Virus record (IMG/VR): IMGVR_UViG_3300032224_001944
Span: 1-20,824 of that record
Reading direction: 5' to 3' (one strand)
Length of the DNA: 20,824 nucleotides
DNA from: a virus
Part shown: positions 3,761-20,824 of the stretch, in pieces
Layout: every line of letters begins with the position of its first letter
Position numbering within the stretch: the first letter of the stretch is position 1
Translations under genes and position numbers: made by a program
The notes under the pieces: model-generated
What the model saw: the letters and a program-made list of their open reading frames with translations, nothing else
What the model was told of the DNA's origin: nothing
Databases searched by the model: none

Positions 3761-4753
3761 TTAGCAATTAGTTGCTATGCGACTACCATATTCCGTAAAC
3801 CGGAAATCGTATACCTTGCACTCGGTTCCGTCGGTAATTATGTCAATAACACGTTGGCGGTTTGCCGGATTTACATAGAATAGGAAAAACCCACCACCAC
3901 CGGCACCCAATAGCTTTCCACCAAAAGCACCGGCTTCTAGGGCTCTATTATAGATACCATCAAAATATTCATTGGTGATAGAAGTTTCAACGGCTTTCTT
4001 ATCCATCCAAGCATCATGTAAAAGAGTACCGAAATCATCAAGCTTACCTTCCTTGAGATATCTAGCACCAACATATGCTTTGTCACGTGATGCTTTAACA
4101 AGATTAAACTTGGTTTCATCACTCATTGCAGCCGATTGTTTTTGTAGAATAGAATTGGCATTACGACCACGACCGGAATAAACAAGAAGCAACCGTTCTT
4201 CAAACTTACACCATGTTTCACGGTTATACGTCATTGGTTTAATGTCAACGGAATCATCTTTATGGAATTCAAAAAGATTCATTCCACCATAAGCTGATGC
4301 ATATTGATCTTGCTTGCCAACAGGATACTTACACAACTCACGTTCAATCATATAAGCAGTTTGGGCAAGATATTCTCTGCTTACCAATGAACTATGTACA
4401 TCTGGATTGGCCAATGCATTCACAAGACCAAGTGTGAATGCTGATGATGATCCAAGACCAGAACCTTTAGCAAGGATATCAGCAATTGAAGCAATTGTAA
4501 CTTCTTTTTCAACACCAAAGTGCTTTAATGATTCCTTGGTAATTGTATGTTGCATTTGCTCCACATCTGGAAATTCTTCAATGGTATCATACATAATTTT
4601 AATACCCAGATGTGGAGTCTTATGTACCATCACGTAAATGTATTTGTCAATAGTGACGGAAAGAGCAGCACCTTTTTCTTTTTTATAAAAAGTAGGCATA
4701 TCACTGCCGCCACTAAAGAAACTAATACGAAGTGGTGTTTTTGAAAGGATCAT
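3761..4753 (-). CDS. hddA: GHMP kinase, D-glycero-D-manno-heptose 7-phosphate kinase type (HddA-like)
   Basis: GHMP-superfamily sugar kinase, most like HddA, which phosphorylates D-glycero-alpha-D-manno-heptose 7-phosphate at C1. The N-terminus (MILSKTPLRISFFSGGSD) is typical of the family. The ATP-binding motif GSGLGSSSA is at residues 97-105, and the C-terminal glycine-rich motif GGKLLGAGGGGF at about 278-289. Length 330 is normal. It is the last gene of the heptose operon and overlaps the glycosyltransferase stop by ATGA (4750-4753), so its translation is coupled. An L-fucose-type kinase is the main alternative; gmhA and gmhB next door make heptose much more likely. Confidence 0.85.
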   Translation of the reverse strand: MILSKTPLRISFFSGGSDMPTFYKKEKGAALSVTIDKYIYVMVHKTPHLGIKIMYDTIEEFPDVEQMQHTITKESLKHFGVEKEVTIASIADILAKGSGLGSSSAFTLGLVNALANPDVHSSLVSREYLAQTAYMIERELCKYPVGKQDQYASAYGGMNLFEFHKDDSVDIKPMTYNRETWCKFEERLLLVYSGRGRNANSILQKQSAAMSDETKFNLVKASRDKAYVGARYLKEGKLDDFGTLLHDAWMDKKAVETSITNEYFDGIYNRALEAGAFGGKLLGAGGGGFFLFYVNPANRQRVIDIITDGTECKVYDFRFTEYGSRIATNC

Positions 4754-5766
4754 TGGTTTGTAATTGTCCTATAAACAAACTGCTGTCTGGGAAAGTCACG
4801 GGATTCAATAGTAGGATTCTTAAAGATAAGATCCTTAAGCATTACTTCCCACTGACCTTTGATTCGCTCGATGTTGTAACGACTATCAACAAACACCTTA
4901 TTAAACTTTACCATTGGCATATGGTTCTTTTCTCTGACAAAGCTAATGGCTGCATTGAGATGGTTGATAAAGATATTTGCGTGATGTGAAATATCATCCC
5001 AATCACCATGATACATCATATTCAAACCACCTGATGTTTCAGAAAGAGCACCAGCATTTGGGTGAACACAGACAAGACCTGCAGACATTGCTTCAAGCAT
5101 TGCACGACATGATGTTTCCAACCAAAGTGATGGGTAAGCAAAGATATGTGACTTGTTCAAATGCTCCTTAACAGTTTCATTAGGAACAAAACCATGATAT
5201 GTCATTTGTGGATGATTACGAATCTGTTCATACAGTGGTTCATATTGCTCATCCATTTTGTCCCAACCATAGATCTTGAAAGAAGAAAATACATCAAGAT
5301 GGATATCTGGATTTGTTTCTGCCAACTTAGCAAAGACTGGAACAAGAAGTTCAAGACCGCGCTGTGGTGTTGATGTATAGACAATACGAATCTTTTCATT
5401 GTCCTTCATCTCATGTACATTCTCAGGTGCTGGTTCAATACCTGACTCAAGAACAATAGACTTTGTATTGTAACCCAAACCATGCATCAACTGATAGCGT
5501 TGATACTGCCAGTTAGAAATGAATACAAACTTATGGAAAGAATCTTGAAACTTCTTATCCTGAAACTTCTTTGACTCTGGATCTTCTGCAAGATCATGTG
5601 CCCAGAATACTCTGAGCTTATCCTTTTGTAGATCACGAGGACGAGAACAAACAATCTGGAAATTATCCAGAAGTTCAGGATCAATTATAGATTGAAGTTT
5701 ACGCTTGGCAATTTCAGTACCACCATTTGCATTAACTGAAACTTCATTTTCTTCAAAACCACTCAT
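4750..5766 (-). CDS. GT-B glycosyltransferase of the heptose operon
   Basis: A 338-residue GT-B-fold (GT4-like) glycosyltransferase. The N-terminal domain has the donor-side loop ANGGTEIAKR near residue 13. The C-terminal domain has IRIVYTSTPQRGLELL near 125-142 and the acidic motif ETSCRAMLEAMSAGL, with its two Glu eight residues apart, as expected for nucleotide-sugar binding in this family. There is no membrane segment or signal peptide. It overlaps the transaldolase gene by ATGA and the kinase gene by ATGA. It presumably transfers the heptose made by the operon; the acceptor (LPS, phage DNA or virion protein) cannot be read from the sequence. It is not of the GT9 type of LPS heptosyltransferases WaaC/WaaF. 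Confidence 0.78.
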   Translation of the reverse strand: MSGFEENEVSVNANGGTEIAKRKLQSIIDPELLDNFQIVCSRPRDLQKDKLRVFWAHDLAEDPESKKFQDKKFQDSFHKFVFISNWQYQRYQLMHGLGYNTKSIVLESGIEPAPENVHEMKDNEKIRIVYTSTPQRGLELLVPVFAKLAETNPDIHLDVFSSFKIYGWDKMDEQYEPLYEQIRNHPQMTYHGFVPNETVKEHLNKSHIFAYPSLWLETSCRAMLEAMSAGLVCVHPNAGALSETSGGLNMMYHGDWDDISHHANIFINHLNAAISFVREKNHMPMVKFNKVFVDSRYNIERIKGQWEVMLKDLIFKNPTIESRDFPRQQFVYRTITNQ

Positions 5767-6494
5767 ATTGCAAACCCCGACTTGAGAGCATCGTTATAAA
5801 ACATTTCACATGTTTCTTTTGAGAATTGTGTAAGATCTTTTCCGAAGCCTTTGACTTTCTTGATAAGATCAGGTGTCATAGTGATAATATCGCAACCGCA
5901 TTCCTGAGCACAGATATAATTATGAGCTTCGCGTGAACTTGCCCAGAGGAATTCTACCTTGTCATCAACTTCTCTAATAGAGTCATAGTATAAAATACCA
6001 CGAGAAATAATATCACGTGGGTTAACACCGACATCGGCAATACGACCAGCAAAGACAGAGATAATGGAAGGAGTTGTTCTGACAAGAGCATCAATAGTCT
6101 CTTCAATCTGACGAACAGTAAAGACGGCAGTTACATTGACCTTGATACCTTCTGAACTCAACTGATTAATAATTGGTGCTGTTGATGTACCGTCTGTATG
6201 CATAACAGGAATCTTTACATAGACAGGATAATTGTATTCTTCACCCCATGAATCAATGAGTCGTGCTTGACGCAGAATATTTACTGGATCATCTGCAAAT
6301 ACTTCAAGACTGAGATTTGTATCTTCGCGCTTGTCTGCCAGAAAGGAAATGACACGCTTAGCAAATTCAGTGTAATTAGTTATACCAGCTGCTCTCATTA
6401 ATGTTGGGTTGGTTGTAAAACCAGAAATGGAAGAATCTCTTGCCGCATTAATGATGCCATCCATATCGGCACCGTCGGCATATAACTTAATCAT
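5763..6494 (-). CDS. tal: transaldolase (short, TalC/FSA-like)
   Basis: Transaldolase-family aldolase, about 243 residues, comparable to the short transaldolases known from cyanophages. It starts MIKLYADGADMD; TTNPTLM is at residues 27-33, the conserved Glu in SLEVFADD near 64, and the Schiff-base lysine K94 in YVKIP. The start is ATG 6494 because GAGGAG lies 10 bases upstream; a TTG 18 bases earlier lacks such a site. It lies between gmhB (8-base overlap) and the glycosyltransferase (ATGA overlap). Transaldolase can form sedoheptulose 7-phosphate from fructose 6-phosphate and erythrose 4-phosphate. That is the substrate of the GmhA encoded two genes upstream, so here it may feed the heptose pathway. 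Confidence 0.85.
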   Translation of the reverse strand: MIKLYADGADMDGIINAARDSSISGFTTNPTLMRAAGITNYTEFAKRVISFLADKREDTNLSLEVFADDPVNILRQARLIDSWGEEYNYPVYVKIPVMHTDGTSTAPIINQLSSEGIKVNVTAVFTVRQIEETIDALVRTTPSIISVFAGRIADVGVNPRDIISRGILYYDSIREVDDKVEFLWASSREAHNYICAQECGCDIITMTPDLIKKVKGFGKDLTQFSKETCEMFYNDALKSGFAI

Positions 6495-7023
6495 CTTTAT
6501 GTAGCTCCTCAATAAGACAGGCAGCTTCTAATACACTGCCAACAATGTAATCAGGATGTATGTTATTGTATTTTTCTTGGGGTTTGTAGTTCTTACCAAT
6601 ATATATGGTATTTAATTTTGATTTGTGACCAGCAACAATGTCTTTCCAAGTGTCACCTATCATATAGCTTATATCTCTATTTATCTTGTTCTTTTTGATC
6701 AATGTTTCAAGCATACCATTATTTGGTTTATACCAAGCTGATCCACGTTCATAAGCAACCAAAGCATCATTCAGTCCTTGGTCCATAAAATATTGCATCA
6801 TTATATTTAAATATCTTTGAGGAAGCAATCCATCATCAACATCTGGTTGATTGGTTACACAATAGGCTTTGTAGCCAAGATCTTTTACTAATTCAATTGC
6901 GGTGGTTGCACCAGGTATTGGTTTGAACTCGTCAAGATTCCAAGGGGCAGTTTTTGTACCATTTGGTCTCTCAACAAGTTCATTTAATACGCCGTCACGA
7001 TCAAAAAATACTGCTTTTACCAC
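6487..7023 (-). CDS. gmhB: HAD phosphatase, heptose 1,7-bisphosphate 7-phosphatase type (GmhB-like)
   Basis: HAD-superfamily phosphatase of the histidinol-phosphatase/GmhB type, 178 residues. Motif I is FFDRDGVLNE with nucleophile D8 and acid/base D10, motif II VTNQ at 56-59, the lysine is in YKPNNGML (K99), and motif IV is MIGDTWKDI with D124 and D128. GmhB removes the C7 phosphate of heptose 1,7-bisphosphate. The Cys/His zinc-binding loop usual before the KP motif is absent (ERGSAWYKP instead). The start is GTG 7023 (a weak ribosome site), overlapping the gmhA stop codon by 7 bases, which suggests coupling. Confidence 0.82.
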   Translation of the reverse strand: MVKAVFFDRDGVLNELVERPNGTKTAPWNLDEFKPIPGATTAIELVKDLGYKAYCVTNQPDVDDGLLPQRYLNIMMQYFMDQGLNDALVAYERGSAWYKPNNGMLETLIKKNKINRDISYMIGDTWKDIVAGHKSKLNTIYIGKNYKPQEKYNNIHPDYIVGSVLEAACLIEELHKDD

Positions 7024-7604
7024 TTTGTCTTATTGATTTGTAGATTGGGATGTGAGATGATACAGTGCCAAATAACGGCTTGAAATGCCTCACTGTGTGG
7101 GGTAATACGTGAAGGTTCTACAGCAGGAACAACAATAACAGTGTCGCAATGCTTAGCAGCATAGCCGTCAGACTTTCCAACAATACAAATCGAGGTGGCA
7201 TCCTTTGCTCTTGCATACTTGATTGCCTTAATAAGTCCTACTGACACATTCCGCTCTTCATCACCGCCGCCGACGGATAGAATGAAGAGGGTGTCTTTGT
7301 AGTTGAATTTAGAGACCCGGAGATATTCTTCAAATACGGTGTTAAATCCTTCATCATTAGTTCTAGCAGTGAGCTCTGGTACGTTATCTGTAGGGCAGTA
7401 AGCTTCAATGCCGCAAAGCTTACGTAGGTCGTTGACCATGTGTGAGGCATTGCCAGCGGACCCACCGACTCCCAATACAAAAACCCTGCCTTCGCTGATA
7501 TCCCTAGTAGTTCTGAGTACACTGACTGCTTCCTCTATTTTGTTGACAAAGACATTCTTTGCAATTTCTACTACTTCATTAAAGTATTGCTCAACAAAAC
7601 TCAT
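7017..7604 (-). CDS. gmhA: sedoheptulose 7-phosphate isomerase (GmhA-like SIS protein)
   Basis: SIS-domain isomerase that would convert sedoheptulose 7-phosphate to D-glycero-D-manno-heptose 7-phosphate. The phosphosugar loop GVGGSAGNASH is at residues 45-55, followed by TARTNDEGFNTVFEEYL. A second SIS segment is FILSVGGGDEERNVS, and the C-terminus SEAFQAVIWHCIISHP...TKW is typical of the GmhA-like subfamily found with HddA. By-eye alignment places Asp59 where E. coli GmhA has its catalytic Glu. The 195-residue length is normal. It starts at ATG 7604, overlapping the nucleotidyltransferase stop by one base (TAATG). Confidence 0.85.
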   Translation of the reverse strand: MSFVEQYFNEVVEIAKNVFVNKIEEAVSVLRTTRDISEGRVFVLGVGGSAGNASHMVNDLRKLCGIEAYCPTDNVPELTARTNDEGFNTVFEEYLRVSKFNYKDTLFILSVGGGDEERNVSVGLIKAIKYARAKDATSICIVGKSDGYAAKHCDTVIVVPAVEPSRITPHSEAFQAVIWHCIISHPNLQINKTKW

Positions 7605-8026
7605 TACAGACGACCTCTCAAATCAGTTGAACTCCAAGTATGCTTGCGTTCATTATAGATAAGTTTAATGCCACGCTTTTCACAAATATCTTGGCCTGTG
7701 GTATATATATCTTTATATTCCTCACCAACAAATCTAACATCAATCGGTTGTGTTGCCAAAAGATTAATTAGATCAGATTCAGTTTCATAAGGAATTACTT
7801 CATTGATATATTTACATCCGCTAAGTTGTACATATCTTTCATATACAGATTGAACCGGCTTTTGTTTTGCCTTCACACGTTCAATTGTAGGATCAACGTG
7901 TAATCCTACAATCAAATAATCACAATACTCTTTGCATTCACGAAGCATTGCAATATGGCCCGGATGAAGAAGGTCAAAAGCACTACAGGTAAAACCAATA
8001 ATGTAACCTTTATCACGTTCAAGCAT
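7604..8026 (-). CDS. HIGH-type nucleotidyltransferase (HldE C-terminal/TagD-like)
   Basis: Cytidylyltransferase-like protein of 140 residues. The nucleotide-binding HxGH is HPGH at residues 21-24 within AFDLLHPGHIAML, and the C-terminal SSTDLRGRL (132-140) matches the SST-x-hxxRI signature of HldE-C, TagD and similar enzymes. In this operon it is expected to activate heptose 1-phosphate to an NDP-heptose. The nucleotide (ATP, CTP or other) cannot be decided. It is first in the heptose-specific set, one base after the speD stop codon, and its stop overlaps gmhA. Alternatives are glycerol-3-phosphate or ethanolamine-phosphate cytidylyltransferase. Confidence 0.8.
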   Translation of the reverse strand: MLERDKGYIIGFTCSAFDLLHPGHIAMLRECKEYCDYLIVGLHVDPTIERVKAKQKPVQSVYERYVQLSGCKYINEVIPYETESDLINLLATQPIDVRFVGEEYKDIYTTGQDICEKRGIKLIYNERKHTWSSTDLRGRL

Positions 8027-8027
8027 G

Positions 8028-8393
8028 TTAGGCCTGTCGAGTTAGGAAGTTAGGACGAATGCTCTTTGCACCAAAGTACTTGGCAACAAGACCAATGACA
8101 ATCTGTTGATCATATGGCTTGCAAGAGAATACATCAAGGTATACAGCATTACCACCAGCAAGATCATCTGGTACAAAGTGGCCAGAAATGTTTGAGGTTT
8201 CAATAAGCTGAACAAGTGAATAACCAGCTTTGTTGCCGCTACCGAAGCTAACAATCTGAGGTTCACCATATGCAACCATGTCAATATCATTGACGAGCTG
8301 CTTTGTAAAATTATAGATAGTGTCATAGTCATTGATTGCATGTGCGTCACAATCAGCGCAGTCAAGAATTAGATGATAACCCCAGTATGCCAT
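8028..8393 (-). CDS. speD: S-adenosylmethionine decarboxylase-like protein
   Basis: A 121-residue AdoMet decarboxylase homologue, the pyruvoyl enzyme that supplies aminopropyl groups for spermidine. The start is ATG 8393 with TAAGGAG about 10 bases upstream; the TTG 13 codons earlier is not needed. Aligned by eye with the class 1 motif ESHISIH, the sequence reads TSNISGH. The pyruvoyl-forming Ser67, His72 and the later Cys91 (DVFSC) are kept, but the residue before the cleaved bond is Thr66 instead of Glu. The loop between His and Cys is 4 residues longer. It follows the preceding stop codon by one base. A divergent or inactive homologue is possible. Confidence 0.75.
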   Translation of the reverse strand: MAYWGYHLILDCADCDAHAINDYDTIYNFTKQLVNDIDMVAYGEPQIVSFGSGNKAGYSLVQLIETSNISGHFVPDDLAGGNAVYLDVFSCKPYDQQIVIGLVAKYFGAKSIRPNFLTRQA

Positions 8394-8394
8394 T

Positions 8395-8679
8395 TCATTC
8401 AGTCTCCTTAGTAAGTTTGTTAATTTGTGCAAGTTTATTGTCTTCTAACCATCCAACAAGATAATCATTATCTTCATTGAATAGTTTTATATATTCTTCT
8501 TTGGTGATTTCTCTTTTTGAAAATTCTATTTCACCAAGATGATGCTGACTCATTTCTTTTGCATCATCATTATATAGTATATAATCAGATGCTACAAAAT
8601 CATAAGAATCATCTGGTATCTCAACAACATAACGATGACGAAACTGAGACAACGTCTCCACCATAACCAATTTAGTCAT
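8395..8679 (-). CDS. conserved small phage protein, acidic
   Basis: A 94-residue hypothetical protein starting MTKLVMVETLSQFRHRYVVE. I know this type of opening from uncharacterised T4-like cyanophage proteins. The rest is acidic and has no membrane segment: HHLGEIEFSKREITKEEYIKLF, then DYLVGWLEDNKL. The start is ATG 8679, one base after the stop of the next gene upstream, with AGGCGG in range; an earlier in-frame start would lie inside that gene. Function unknown. Confidence 0.65.
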   Translation of the reverse strand: MTKLVMVETLSQFRHRYVVEIPDDSYDFVASDYILYNDDAKEMSQHHLGEIEFSKREITKEEYIKLFNEDNDYLVGWLEDNKLAQINKLTKETE

Positions 8680-11485: not shown

Positions 11486-12289
11486 TTATGCGTAGGTTCT
11501 ATATCCAATAACTTTACTTGCTGGATAAAGACCAACTTGAACTGATTTGTCAGTATTACCGCCAAGTACTTTTACATACTTCACGCCTTCATACCATTCA
11601 TAACCCATAAAAAAACCAACATGACCTGACCAGCCATCATTACCACGGGCTAGAACAACAACGTCACCTTCTTTTGGATCTTTTGTTTTAACACCCCAAG
11701 TAAGGAATGAACGAGCTCTAAGTGAGTCAGTTCCTTCAACATCGGTACGACGAAGAATGGCATTAGCAAATGCTGCACACCATGGAATATTTACAGGATC
11801 AACCGGACCTTGACCTGTTTCAGCAAATAGTTTCTTTAACTCTTGCTTATCTTTCTTAGCATGCTTACCTTCCCACTTCTTTGCTTCAGCAACCACATCC
11901 TTAGTAACTTCAGTTTCTGTGCAAATAAACCAGACACAATGTTTAACAATTTCACGGCGCTTTTGATCACGTGAAAGTGCTACTTTTGTTCTAACTGGTG
12001 GTTCAACATTTTTAGCTAAGATCTGTTCACGAGCTCTTTCTTGAGCCCAGTATTCAGATGAACTTTGTTCATGTGAACTTGAAAAAACCGAATTGTTCTT
12101 AAGAAAAGGATTGTGTTCTGGTGCAACCTTAGCTGCTTGAACCACTTTCTTTTTTCTTTTCTGTACAACTTTCTTCTTTACAGTTTGTTGTATAACTGGT
12201 TTTTCTGTAGAAGTTGGTTTTGCTTCTACGATTGAAGATGCTATTAAAGCACCTACTGCAACCGTGGCTGCTAAAATTACCTTATACAT
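11486..12289 (-). CDS. secreted TIGR02594-type (NlpC/P60-like) peptidoglycan amidase/peptidase
   Basis: A 267-residue exported protein. A Sec signal peptide covers about residues 1-23 (MYKVILAATVAVGALIASSI, cleavage near VEA). It is followed by a Lys-rich, low-complexity linker and a C-terminal TIGR02594-type domain with IPWCAAFANAIL (Cys171, likely nucleophile), ARSFLTWG, EGDVVVLARG, GHVGFFMGY (His223) and VLGGNTDKSVQV. Relatives cleave peptide bonds in peptidoglycan, so lysis or envelope passage is likely. The start is ATG 12289 with AGGAG upstream; it follows the RlpA stop by one base. The disulphide-like pair C118 and C123 in HCVWFICTE is unusual. Confidence 0.78.
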   Translation of the reverse strand: MYKVILAATVAVGALIASSIVEAKPTSTEKPVIQQTVKKKVVQKRKKKVVQAAKVAPEHNPFLKNNSVFSSSHEQSSSEYWAQERAREQILAKNVEPPVRTKVALSRDQKRREIVKHCVWFICTETEVTKDVVAEAKKWEGKHAKKDKQELKKLFAETGQGPVDPVNIPWCAAFANAILRRTDVEGTDSLRARSFLTWGVKTKDPKEGDVVVLARGNDGWSGHVGFFMGYEWYEGVKYVKVLGGNTDKSVQVGLYPASKVIGYRTYA

Positions 12290-12290
12290 T

Positions 12291-12707
12291 TCATTTTCTC
12301 CTGTCAAGAACTTGGATTAGCAATTTGGCTGTTCCACTATGGAAAAACCCTAATGCCTGAGCCCCACCACGTGAGACATCTAGTTCTTTATCCCTAACGA
12401 ATGGTCCACGGTCGTTCACGACAGCATCAATAGTATTACCAGTTTTCACATTCGTTAATCTTAACATCGTACCAAAAGGTAAAGTACGATGGGCTACAGA
12501 GTATTTATTCGGATTGAATATTTCACCTGAGGCAGTTTTCTTACAACATTGATACCAAGTTGCGGTGCCATGGTAACTTTTAGTTATCTTACCGTCGGCA
12601 TCGGCCTTAACAGTAGCACAACCAGAAAGAAACATGACACCGCAAATTAGTACTATATTACCGCTTCTTACCTTTGAGGCGGCGTGCTTTACGCTTTCTT
12701 GAGCCAA
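12291..12707 (-). CDS. rlpA: RlpA-like lipoprotein (double-psi beta-barrel, lytic transglycosylase family)
   Basis: RlpA-family protein; bacterial RlpA is an outer-membrane lipoprotein that cleaves denuded glycan strands at the septum. The lipobox FLSGC (Cys30 from this start) follows a hydrophobic stretch, then HGTATWY, KTASGEIFNP, VAHRTLPFG (His73), VNDRGPF (Asp99) and LDVSRGGAQALGF. The start is uncertain. I use TTG 12707, which has AAGGA 10 bases upstream and gives a signal peptide with a basic n-region. ATG 12635 would leave almost no n-region. A longer reading to 12833 would only translate the tRNA and a different-frame gene. It overlaps the 31-residue basic-protein gene by 50 bases. 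Confidence 0.75.
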   Translation of the reverse strand: MAQESVKHAASKVRSGNIVLICGVMFLSGCATVKADADGKITKSYHGTATWYQCCKKTASGEIFNPNKYSVAHRTLPFGTMLRLTNVKTGNTIDAVVNDRGPFVRDKELDVSRGGAQALGFFHSGTAKLLIQVLDRRK

Positions 12708-12753
12708 TTTTACGACGTCCTTTACGTGGGCGGTTTTTATGAGGATGTGCCAT
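12658..12753 (-). CDS. 31-residue very basic protein
   Basis: Short ORF, MAHPHKNRPRKGRRKIGSRK then RKARRLKGKKR, with 18 of 31 residues Lys or Arg. ATG 12753 has a strong Shine-Dalgarno (AAGGAG about 9 bases upstream), and no acidic residue occurs. It resembles tiny ribosomal proteins or nucleic-acid-binding micro-proteins that I have seen in T4-like marine phages. It lies 22 bases after tRNA(CAT) and overlaps the start of rlpA in another frame. RNA or DNA binding is inferred from charge only. Confidence 0.7.
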   Translation of the reverse strand: MAHPHKNRPRKGRRKIGSRKRKARRLKGKKR

Positions 12754-12775
12754 AATATACTCCTTTGTGGTGAAA

Positions 12776-12850
12776 TGGTGCGCGAGGTAGGACTCGAACC
12801 TACACTCAGACCGTTATGAGCGGCCGGCTTCACCTTTAAGCTACTCGCGC
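12776..12850 (-). tRNA. tRNA with CAT anticodon (Met, or Ile2 if lysidine-modified)
   Basis: A complete cloverleaf on the minus strand. The acceptor GCGCGAG pairs perfectly with CTCGCGC, the D-stem is GCTT/AAGC, the anticodon stem GGCCG/CGGTC holds loop CTCATAA, the T-arm is GTAGG-TTCGAGT-CCTAC, and the discriminator A is followed by an encoded CCA (12776-12778). The anticodon CAT fits elongator Met or a minor Ile tRNA that needs TilS; base identity alone does not decide. The 5' end begins one base after the stop codon of the YkuK-like gene. Confidence 0.92.
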
Positions 12851-18698: not shown

Positions 18699-18986
18699 AT
18701 GGACGTTAATTCTATATTTAAGTTGATTTCAGATGTCGGCTTTCCTATTGCCGCGGCTTGTGCCATGGGATATTTTATTTTCCTTACAATCAAATTTATA
18801 CTTGCTGGCGTGATGAGTTCCGTCAATAGTATGAAAGGAATCATTATAGCCTTGGACAACCGTGTTAAAACTATGAATCATGATGTTATCCGTATTGATA
18901 CTTTAGTTTCTAATGTTATGGGTGTTAAACCGGATACCGACAGAATTGCCAGAGCTGATGGCAAAAATGATGCAAGGAGAGATTAA
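18699..18986 (+). CDS. small membrane protein, paralogue 1 (holin-like)
   Basis: A 95-residue protein. A short N-terminal segment is followed by a hydrophobic stretch with VGFPIAAACAMGYFIF at about 12-28 and a possible continuation to residue 40, then a heptad-like region (IIIALDNRVKTMNHDVIRID) and a charged C-terminus (RADGKNDARRD). ATG 18699 has AAGGTG upstream. It is clearly related to the next gene. Size and topology suit a holin or a small virion membrane protein, but no holin family can be named with certainty. Together with its neighbour it forms the only plus-strand operon of the window. Confidence 0.75.
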   Translation: MDVNSIFKLISDVGFPIAAACAMGYFIFLTIKFILAGVMSSVNSMKGIIIALDNRVKTMNHDVIRIDTLVSNVMGVKPDTDRIARADGKNDARRD

Positions 18987-19327
18987 TGGGTAATCTAGCT
19001 GACCTAATTGCAAAATATGGCTTTCCTATTGTAGCTGCTGGCGGTATGGGATATATGATTTATTATGTATGGACTTGGGCAACCAAAGAAATTAAACCGG
19101 TGTTGTCAGATGCCAATGTTGTACTTATCGCGCTCATAGACCGAATCCGTATGCTTGACAATGATTTAATTAGAATGAATCAAAAAGTCAACGTAGTACT
19201 TATGCTGCGTGAAATGGAACAAGAAGAACTTTTAAAGAAAGCATCAGAATTCCGTAAAGGTGAAAAGAAATTATCAGCACCTAAAAAGGTTATTGAAGAA
19301 ACAAATAGTAAACTTCAAGCTGATTAA
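18986..19327 (+). CDS. small membrane protein, paralogue 2 (holin-like)
   Basis: A 113-residue protein starting on the last base of the previous stop codon (TAATG), with a strong AAGGAG site. Residues 12-30 (YGFPIVAAGGMGYMIYYVW) form one membrane helix. The region IALIDRIRMLDNDLIRMNQKVNVVL looks like a coiled coil, and the C-terminus is highly charged (EEELLKKASEFRKGEKK). It shares GFPIxAAxxMGYxI, IALxxR and NxDxIR with the preceding protein, so the pair arose by duplication. This form resembles small hypothetical proteins widespread in T4-like marine phages. Its stop overlaps the stop of the convergent glycosyltransferase gene by TTAA. Confidence 0.75.
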   Translation: MGNLADLIAKYGFPIVAAGGMGYMIYYVWTWATKEIKPVLSDANVVLIALIDRIRMLDNDLIRMNQKVNVVLMLREMEQEELLKKASEFRKGEKKLSAPKKVIEETNSKLQAD

Positions 19328-20295
19328 ACTCTTAGATTGTCAATAAACATCTTAGCAGTTTTCTTCCAATCATAGTTTTCTTTAATGAACTTAGAGCAGT
19401 CAGATCTTTTCAGTTTGACTGCTTTTTCACAAGCAACTTTAAGATCCCAATCCATTGCACCAACTTTATCAGTTAGAATATCAATTGGTCCTGTAACTGG
19501 ATATGCAGCAACTGGTGTACCACAAGCAAGAGCTTCAATAATAACTAAACCAAACGTATCTGTCTTTGATGGGAAAACAAACACATCCGCATTCTGATAT
19601 ACAAATGCAAGGTTCTTACCAGATAACTTACCCATAAAATTAACATATCTATACTTTTGTTTTAATCTTTCTAATTCTGGGCCATCACCAACAACAACCT
19701 TTGTTGCTTTCATATCCAAATTAAGAAATGCTTCAATGTTTTTTTCTACAGAAACTCTACCAACATAAAGAAGCATTGGTATCTGCCCCTTCAAATTTTT
19801 TGGCTTTGGTGGTTTAAATAGATTTGTATCTACACCTCGTGTCCATTTTACAAGATTAATAAAACCGCGATCTTCTAGGTCTTTCTTTAAACTATCAGTT
19901 GACACCATAAGAGCAGAACTTTTAGAGTGAAACCATTTCATATAATGATATGTTAAGTTAGCTGGTACATTAATCATTGCTTCTAAAAACTCAGGAAACT
20001 TTGTATGATAACTTGTGGTAAAGTTTCTTTTGTTTTGAATACACCAGTTTCTTACTGCTAGACCAATCGGCCCTTCAGTTGCAATATGAATATATTTTGG
20101 ATTTAATTCTTTAATCTTTTTACCAATACCAAAAGGCACAGATAATCTTATCTCTTTATAGAACGGACACGGAAAAGACTTAAAGTCATTTGGCGTAATG
20201 AATATAACATCATTACACTCTTCTTGTATCTTTTTTAATGTCATCACAACGCCGTTAACTTGCGGCTCCCAAGCATCAGTTGCTATTAATATCAT
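19324..20295 (-). CDS. GT4 glycosyltransferase, lipid-glycosyltransferase (Agt) type
   Basis: A 323-residue GT-B, GT4-family enzyme. The N-terminal domain has the acceptor-side loop TDAWEPQVNGVVMTL (6-20), EIRLSVPFG, YIHIATEGPIGLAVRNWC (68-85) and FTTSYHTKFPE (92-102). The C-terminal domain has LLYVGRVSVEKNIEAFL, VVGDGPELE and the E-x7-E-like motif in TDTFGLVIIEALACGTPV (E254). These features closely match the alphaproteobacterial glycosyltransferases (Agt) encoded beside plcP that make glucosyl- or glucuronosyl-diacylglycerol. Start ATG 20295 overlaps the PlcP-like gene by 20 bases, so the two are coupled. The sugar donor cannot be read from the sequence. Confidence 0.82.
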   Translation of the reverse strand: MILIATDAWEPQVNGVVMTLKKIQEECNDVIFITPNDFKSFPCPFYKEIRLSVPFGIGKKIKELNPKYIHIATEGPIGLAVRNWCIQNKRNFTTSYHTKFPEFLEAMINVPANLTYHYMKWFHSKSSALMVSTDSLKKDLEDRGFINLVKWTRGVDTNLFKPPKPKNLKGQIPMLLYVGRVSVEKNIEAFLNLDMKATKVVVGDGPELERLKQKYRYVNFMGKLSGKNLAFVYQNADVFVFPSKTDTFGLVIIEALACGTPVAAYPVTGPIDILTDKVGAMDWDLKVACEKAVKLKRSDCSKFIKENYDWKKTAKMFIDNLRV

Positions 20296-20824
20296 TCCAT
20301 CTTACCAATTCAAATTGACCATTATAGTGTTCAACAATAGCGGTACAAGATTCTACCCAATCACCGCAGTTATAATATTTAATACCATTAAACTCACCAA
20401 TATTAGCATGATGAATATGACCACAGACAACACCGATAACTTCTTGAGTTTTGGCATATGAAGCAAGAGTCTCTTCATAATTACCAATAAAATTAACGGC
20501 TTCTTTTACTTTATACTTTGCCCAAGCACTGAGAGACCAATACGGTAAGCCAAACCAATTACGAACTTTTGTTACCATAGTGTTTAGAGCCATTGCAAAA
20601 TCATATGCCCAAGAACCGAGATGTGCTAACCACTTTGCATTCTTAATTACAGCATCAAATTGATCACCATGAATAACTAATATTGGTTTATTATCAACTG
20701 TAATATGAATAAAACGTTCCAGTATATGAATGTTACCAAAAAATTGATCACCAAAATTTCTTAATACTTCATCATGATTACCAGAAACGTATATAATATC
20801 GGTACCTTTACGACCTCGGCGAAG
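20276..20824 (-). CDS. plcP: PlcP-like metallophosphoesterase (LpxH-related), N-terminus beyond window
   Basis: C-terminal 182 residues of a calcineurin-type metallophosphoesterase; the start lies beyond the right edge. Visible motifs are SGNHDE near the left end of the fragment, VIHGDQFDAV, then LAHLGSWAYDFA, GLPYWSLSAWAKYKVKEAV, GVVCGHIHHANIG (metal-binding GHxHxA) and YYNCGDWVESCTAIVEH. This is the pattern of proteins often annotated as UDP-2,3-diacylglucosamine pyrophosphatase, of which bacterial PlcP is the studied member; PlcP cleaves phospholipids to diacylglycerol under phosphate limitation. Pairing with an Agt-type glycosyltransferase supports that over an LpxH role. The open frame runs without a stop to base 20824. 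Confidence 0.82.
   Translation of the reverse strand, partial: LRRGRKGTDIIYVSGNHDEVLRNFGDQFFGNIHILERFIHITVDNKPILVIHGDQFDAVIKNAKWLAHLGSWAYDFAMALNTMVTKVRNWFGLPYWSLSAWAKYKVKEAVNFIGNYEETLASYAKTQEVIGVVCGHIHHANIGEFNGIKYYNCGDWVESCTAIVEHYNGQFELVRWNDINSN

Follow-up and report, generated by a model that had tools for sequence, protein, structure and literature searches.

The virus record analysed here, a stretch of 20,824 bases referred to as the window, probably encodes a working pair of the enzymes PlcP and Agt, with phosphorus as the most likely benefit for the phage. It carries a T4-type gene set (NrdA, NrdB, glutaredoxin, PhoH, SegE and two tRNA genes), mostly on the minus strand, and the pair itself comprises the following features:

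19324-20295, minus strand: agt-like GT4 glycosyltransferase of 323 amino acids (open reading frame, Pfam, identity to the PA3218 type, residues, profile and structural model)
20276-20824, minus strand: plcP-like metallophosphoesterase, C-terminal 182 amino acids, the frame being open at its 5' end (open reading frame, identity, tree and LpxH alignment)
20276-20295, minus strand: overlap of 20 bp between the end of plcP and the start of agt (open reading frame calls)

Under phosphate scarcity, bacteria employ these two enzymes to exchange the phosphate of membrane lipids for sugar. In the proposed scheme, PlcP, a metal-dependent phospholipase C, the metal being manganese in this class of enzyme, would strip the phosphate-bearing head groups from host phospholipids and leave diacylglycerol, to which Agt would transfer glucose or glucuronic acid from a UDP-sugar. 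The resulting phosphorus-free glycolipid would keep the membrane intact and prevent the build-up of diacylglycerol, while the freed phospho-alcohols would be broken down to feed phage DNA synthesis, the T4-type phage also carrying NrdA and NrdB. As PlcP would free phospho-alcohols rather than free phosphate, the gain would depend on further enzymes.

The GT4 glycosyltransferase overlapping a metallophosphoesterase that was reported in the preliminary description is indeed found, and the motifs quoted there (GNHDE, HGDQFD, GLPYWSLSAWAK, GHIHHA and GDWVESC) are all present in the phosphoesterase translation. The latter frame is open because the contig stops inside the gene, so that about 72 N-terminal residues are absent by comparison with the relative L002, whose phosphoesterase, 91% identical to that of the window, is the full form of 254 amino acids. 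Both genes are retained in the relatives L002, L004 and L005 at 71-91% identity, with dN/dS between the window and these relatives of about 0.04-0.10 where computable, the synonymous sites of the L005 glycosyltransferase being saturated; kept in three relatives at such low dN/dS, the two frames are genuine genes.

At the sequence level, there is good support for the two predicted proteins being orthologues of PlcP and Agt. Regarding the phosphoesterase (PF12850, 6e-7), it is 50.5% identical, over 100% of the fragment, to an enzyme from Sinorhizobium meliloti encoded next to a LuxR-type regulator and an acyl-homoserine-lactone synthase (locus L084), i.e. in what we take to be the sinR/sinI neighbourhood where PlcP (SMc00171) resides; this PlcP differs from the phage one in being cellular and in having no adjoining agt in that locus. 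It is also 49.7% identical to the PA3219-type enzyme of Pseudomonas aeruginosa, whose gene is followed by that of a PA3218-type glycosyltransferase. The metal-ligand set (DxH, GD, GNHD, H and GHxH) is invariant in 28 phage relatives, L002 included, and its C-terminal members are present in the window protein, the N-terminal ones falling past the contig end. In a tree of 69 rows, the phage phosphoesterases form at least two distinct groups among the PlcPs and LpxH stands on a very long branch, with the long branches leaving the exact placement unsure.

The closest solved fold is nonetheless LpxH (Z 18.6, 21% identity), the fold search returning LpxH and distant phosphoesterases with no PlcP-labelled structure among the matches listed, and the PDB sequence search with the fragment gave nothing useful. 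Such a top match is expected within the superfamily, as PlcP and LpxH have the calcineurin-like fold in common at about 20% identity. A reading of the pair as an LpxH-like lipid A enzyme with a lipopolysaccharide or polysaccharide glycosyltransferase could also invoke database names, namely "putative UDP-2,3-diacylglucosamine hydrolase" for the counterpart in phage Mosig and "UDP-2,3-diacylglucosamine diphosphatase" for that in cyanophage S-SRM01, the latter being a cultured phage whose distant relative of the phosphoesterase (L083:4806-5510, plus strand) is 31% identical and of unsure place in the tree. With the NCBIfam models of LpxH, however, for which the cut-offs are 134 and 190.35 bits, the full-length phage relative scored 50.5 and 40.8 bits and the window fragment 19.8, in the range of known PlcPs (38-55 bits) and far under LpxH from Escherichia coli (364-389 bits). 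Besides, the alignment gives GNRDF in E. coli LpxH, which has no GDWVESC, vs. GNHDE in the PlcPs and the window protein, and the glycosyltransferase belongs to the Agt clade. By identity, tree, GNHDE and GDWVESC, the phosphoesterase thus resembles characterised PlcPs more than LpxH; the match to bacterial PlcP that had been proposed is borne out, and grouping with true LpxH, which had been named as the outcome that would speak against it, is the opposite of what the tree gave, LpxH being far out. An LpxH identity is contradicted by the models, the motif and the tree, and this reading of the pair is most improbable.

The glycosyltransferase of the window (PF00534, 1e-20; PF13439, 9e-11) is 43% identical to the PA3218-type Agt1 of P. 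aeruginosa and 42-51% identical to bacterial genes adjoining plcP. PA3218 has been shown to form MGDG, with DAG and UDP-glucose as substrates (PMC8528852). Within GT4, the Agt/GTcp clade is characterised by the motifs GRVAxEKN and FPSxTDTFG and by a His104-Asp256 dyad where Asp replaces the usual Glu, and the sugar- and lipid-binding residues of GTcp have been named, including Arg163 and Trp320 at the lipid site (PMC8231724). Correspondingly, the window protein exhibits GRVSVEKN from residue 179, FPSKTDTFG from residue 241, a His97/Asp246 dyad, and Arg153 and Trp310 at the positions of the diacylglycerol site. All 14 of the residues mutated or docked in the SAR11 Agt (GTcp) are matched, their location in the window protein relying on published numbers and spacing rather than on the GTcp sequence; across 24 relatives, 13 of the 14 show little or no variation, only the docking residue Thr162 departing from this pattern. 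A family profile containing one PA3218-type row and scored against 9-29 candidates per genome recovered 1-3 matches in each of 16 alphaproteobacterial genomes (20 of 21 matches at 1e-106 or better, the remaining one at 8e-21), and the AlphaFold model (pLDDT 91.8) matches retaining enzymes of the GT-B type. The glycosyltransferase tree was built without E. coli WaaG and WaaB and the second GT4 of the window (outgroup branches of 8-10, saturated). By identity, profile and residues, the protein belongs to the Agt clade, set clearly apart from the GT4 enzymes of lipopolysaccharide and polysaccharide synthesis with which an affiliation had been set beforehand as a ground for rejection. The Agt-like character suggested in the preliminary description is thereby strengthened.

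Among cellular systems, PA3219-PA3218 of P. aeruginosa (PlcP-Agt1) has plcP then agt, overlapping, with the same motifs, but is under Pho-box control and is accompanied by a separate Agt2 making a glucuronosyl lipid (PMC8528852). In SAR11 strain HTCC7211, PlcP (PB7211_983) and GTcp/Agt (PB7211_960) form the same two-step system, likewise cellular (PMC4796936, PMC8231724), and the window glycosyltransferase has in common with GTcp both UDP-sugar motifs and the Asp in place of Glu.

As to whether other phages carry the pair, it recurs in many T4-type phage contigs. Locus counts come from the best-scoring loci, which biases the linkage fractions, and a few contigs are in both seed sets. Seeding with the glycosyltransferase gave plcP near agt in 75 of 75 viral loci, whereas seeding with the phosphoesterase gave an adjoining glycosyltransferase in 23 of 80 and no close agt in 57, some of these being short fragments. 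Where both genes occur, plcP precedes agt with no change of strand in each of the 98 viral loci and in 69 of 70 bacterial pairs, and the two genes overlap or are at most 30 bp apart in 52 of the 98. A relative of the glycosyltransferase was detected in at least 535 viral stretches, and not all of these relatives need be Agt. In L002, a radical SAM protein is encoded directly behind agt (11503-12660, plus strand) and is missing from that place in the window. L009 and L013 adjoin the window group in one of the two protein trees and lie elsewhere in the other, a conflict which suggests that agt has been exchanged between phage lineages.

The pair is not obligatory, as evidenced by the 57 loci without close agt and by large contigs with lone plcP, none of which (0/8) has agt anywhere; the close relatives L006 and L008 also lack it. 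Selection might then act on PlcP, with Agt as an optional detoxifier: the phage would need the breakdown of phospholipids as such, and diacylglycerol, membrane thinning and phosphorus release would be the useful effects. Yet agt, where present, is under strong purifying selection, and its constant neighbourhood with plcP in the loci seeded from it also goes against this reading, to which we grant little likelihood.

The contig could also be host DNA miscalled as viral, or the pair a recent stray host insert, since IMG/VR contigs can be misassigned and some "phage" database matches look bacterial by gene content. This is contradicted by the phage-type NrdA/NrdB, SegE and PhoH genes on the same contig, by the long-diverged clades that the phage orthologues form and by 10 pair-bearing contigs of 60-338 kb encoding the T4-type major capsid protein gp23, so that such an origin has a negligible probability. 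NrdB and PhoH of the window point to T4-type phages in general, and psbA is absent from 32 records, which thus give no sign of cyanophages. No genuine cultured phage with an Agt was found, the best glycosyltransferase matches in the phage collection being bacterial-looking by gene content or unannotated fragments.

Among the phosphate genes known from phages is pstS. A PstS-type gene occurs in only 7 of 32 records, but in five of the seven its distance from plcP is no more than 5 kb (P about 1e-5 under uniform placement, the true figure being weaker because G154 and G163, among the five, are close relatives); in L244/L245, it stands directly behind agt. The cultured T4-type Pelagibacter phage Mosig EXVC030M carries a pstS-like gene divergent from its plcP-like gene, which is 43% identical to that of the window but has no adjoining agt and falls in another branch of the PlcP tree. 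These neighbours lend support to the phosphate reading and appear to be a better phosphate link than PhoH, which had been pointed out in the same window with its connection left open. The PhoH gene is present (799-1554) but, being about 18 kb from the pair and of a type found in many phages (matches in 3,458 phage records), it provides no evidence of a link and was rejected as a linked phosphate gene. Regarding control, a Pho box (at least 12 of 14 matches) was found upstream of bacterial plcP in 21% of loci vs. 0.2% in shuffles, and upstream of phage plcP in 0% at the same threshold, the window's own upstream region falling past the contig end. The phage version is thus not wired like the bacterial one, and with no Pho box its expression would track the phage programme and not the phosphate state of the host.

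Using the same enzymes for another purpose, the phage could instead make glycolipids that alter the envelope in order to exclude other phages, protect the cell against predators or prepare lysis, with phosphate as a side issue. This main rival is in keeping with the lack of Pho boxes in phage loci and with a review arguing that phage binding may change when lipids are renovated (PMC9804370). It could also draw on a heptose-nucleotide cluster with a second GT4 at 3761-8026 (minus strand) of the window, typical of surface modification, and on a block of curlin-repeat, FecR and CHASE2-adenylate/guanylate cyclase genes standing before plcP in relatives. On the other hand, pstS genes cluster with plcP, a lone plcP would yield only diacylglycerol, not an evident mask for the cell surface, and we know of no phage that takes such glycolipids as receptor. 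Phosphate salvage is hence favoured, envelope alteration being unlikely though ahead of the other alternatives.

The heptose-nucleotide cluster encodes an HddA-like GHMP kinase, a GmhB-like phosphatase, a GmhA-like isomerase, an HldE-like nucleotidyltransferase and a transaldolase that could supply sedoheptulose 7-phosphate, and its order is largely conserved in L034 and partly in L041. The curlin-FecR-cyclase block lies shortly before plcP in L002 (5768-9813, plus strand), where the end of the cyclase gene overlaps the start of plcP, and is also found before plcP in L005, L009, L035, L044, L063, L071 and L078. A curli/FecR/adenylate-cyclase block is known in pelagiphages (PMC9599517, PMC7029224), and these two papers, checked for phosphoesterase and lipid content, report no plcP or agt with it; the cyclase of the block is likewise present in cultured methylophages and in HTVC008M. 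Besides, the window encodes an S-adenosylmethionine decarboxylase (SpeD; 8028-8432, minus strand), i.e. a polyamine gene in a phage, as well as a CHAP-domain protein beside a protein of lytic-transglycosylase type (DPBB), adjoining tRNA-Met (11486-12833, minus strand), both likely with cell-wall or lysis functions. A pair of neighbouring small proteins of membrane type, both from family phrog_18771 (18699-18986 and 18986-19327), is encoded on the plus strand, unlike the rest; they bear a weak resemblance to a phage holin family, and many relatives retain them between plcP/agt and nrdA.

Taking phosphate salvage further, it is conceivable, and put forward tentatively, that a wide range of T4-type phages perform an infection-timed swap of phospholipid for glycolipid which funds DNA synthesis and is coordinated with pstS and the curlin-FecR-cyclase block; such phages might, just as tentatively, act without waiting for the host phosphate sensor. 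No report of plcP as a viral auxiliary gene was found in the open-access literature that was searched. One viral gene named "lpxH" appears in a viral metatranscriptome from Lake Baikal (PMC9611531) and may, at a guess, be a misnamed phosphoesterase of the PlcP type. More generally, viral PlcP and Agt genes are probably annotated as "lpxH" and "glycosyltransferase". Lipid remodelling has already been measured in natural waters. If the proposed role is true, a phage opening the membrane lipids of its host as a phosphorus store would represent a new kind of resource capture, and re-reading such genes as PlcP-Agt would tie viruses in natural waters to membrane lipids and phosphorus in a way that can be tested.
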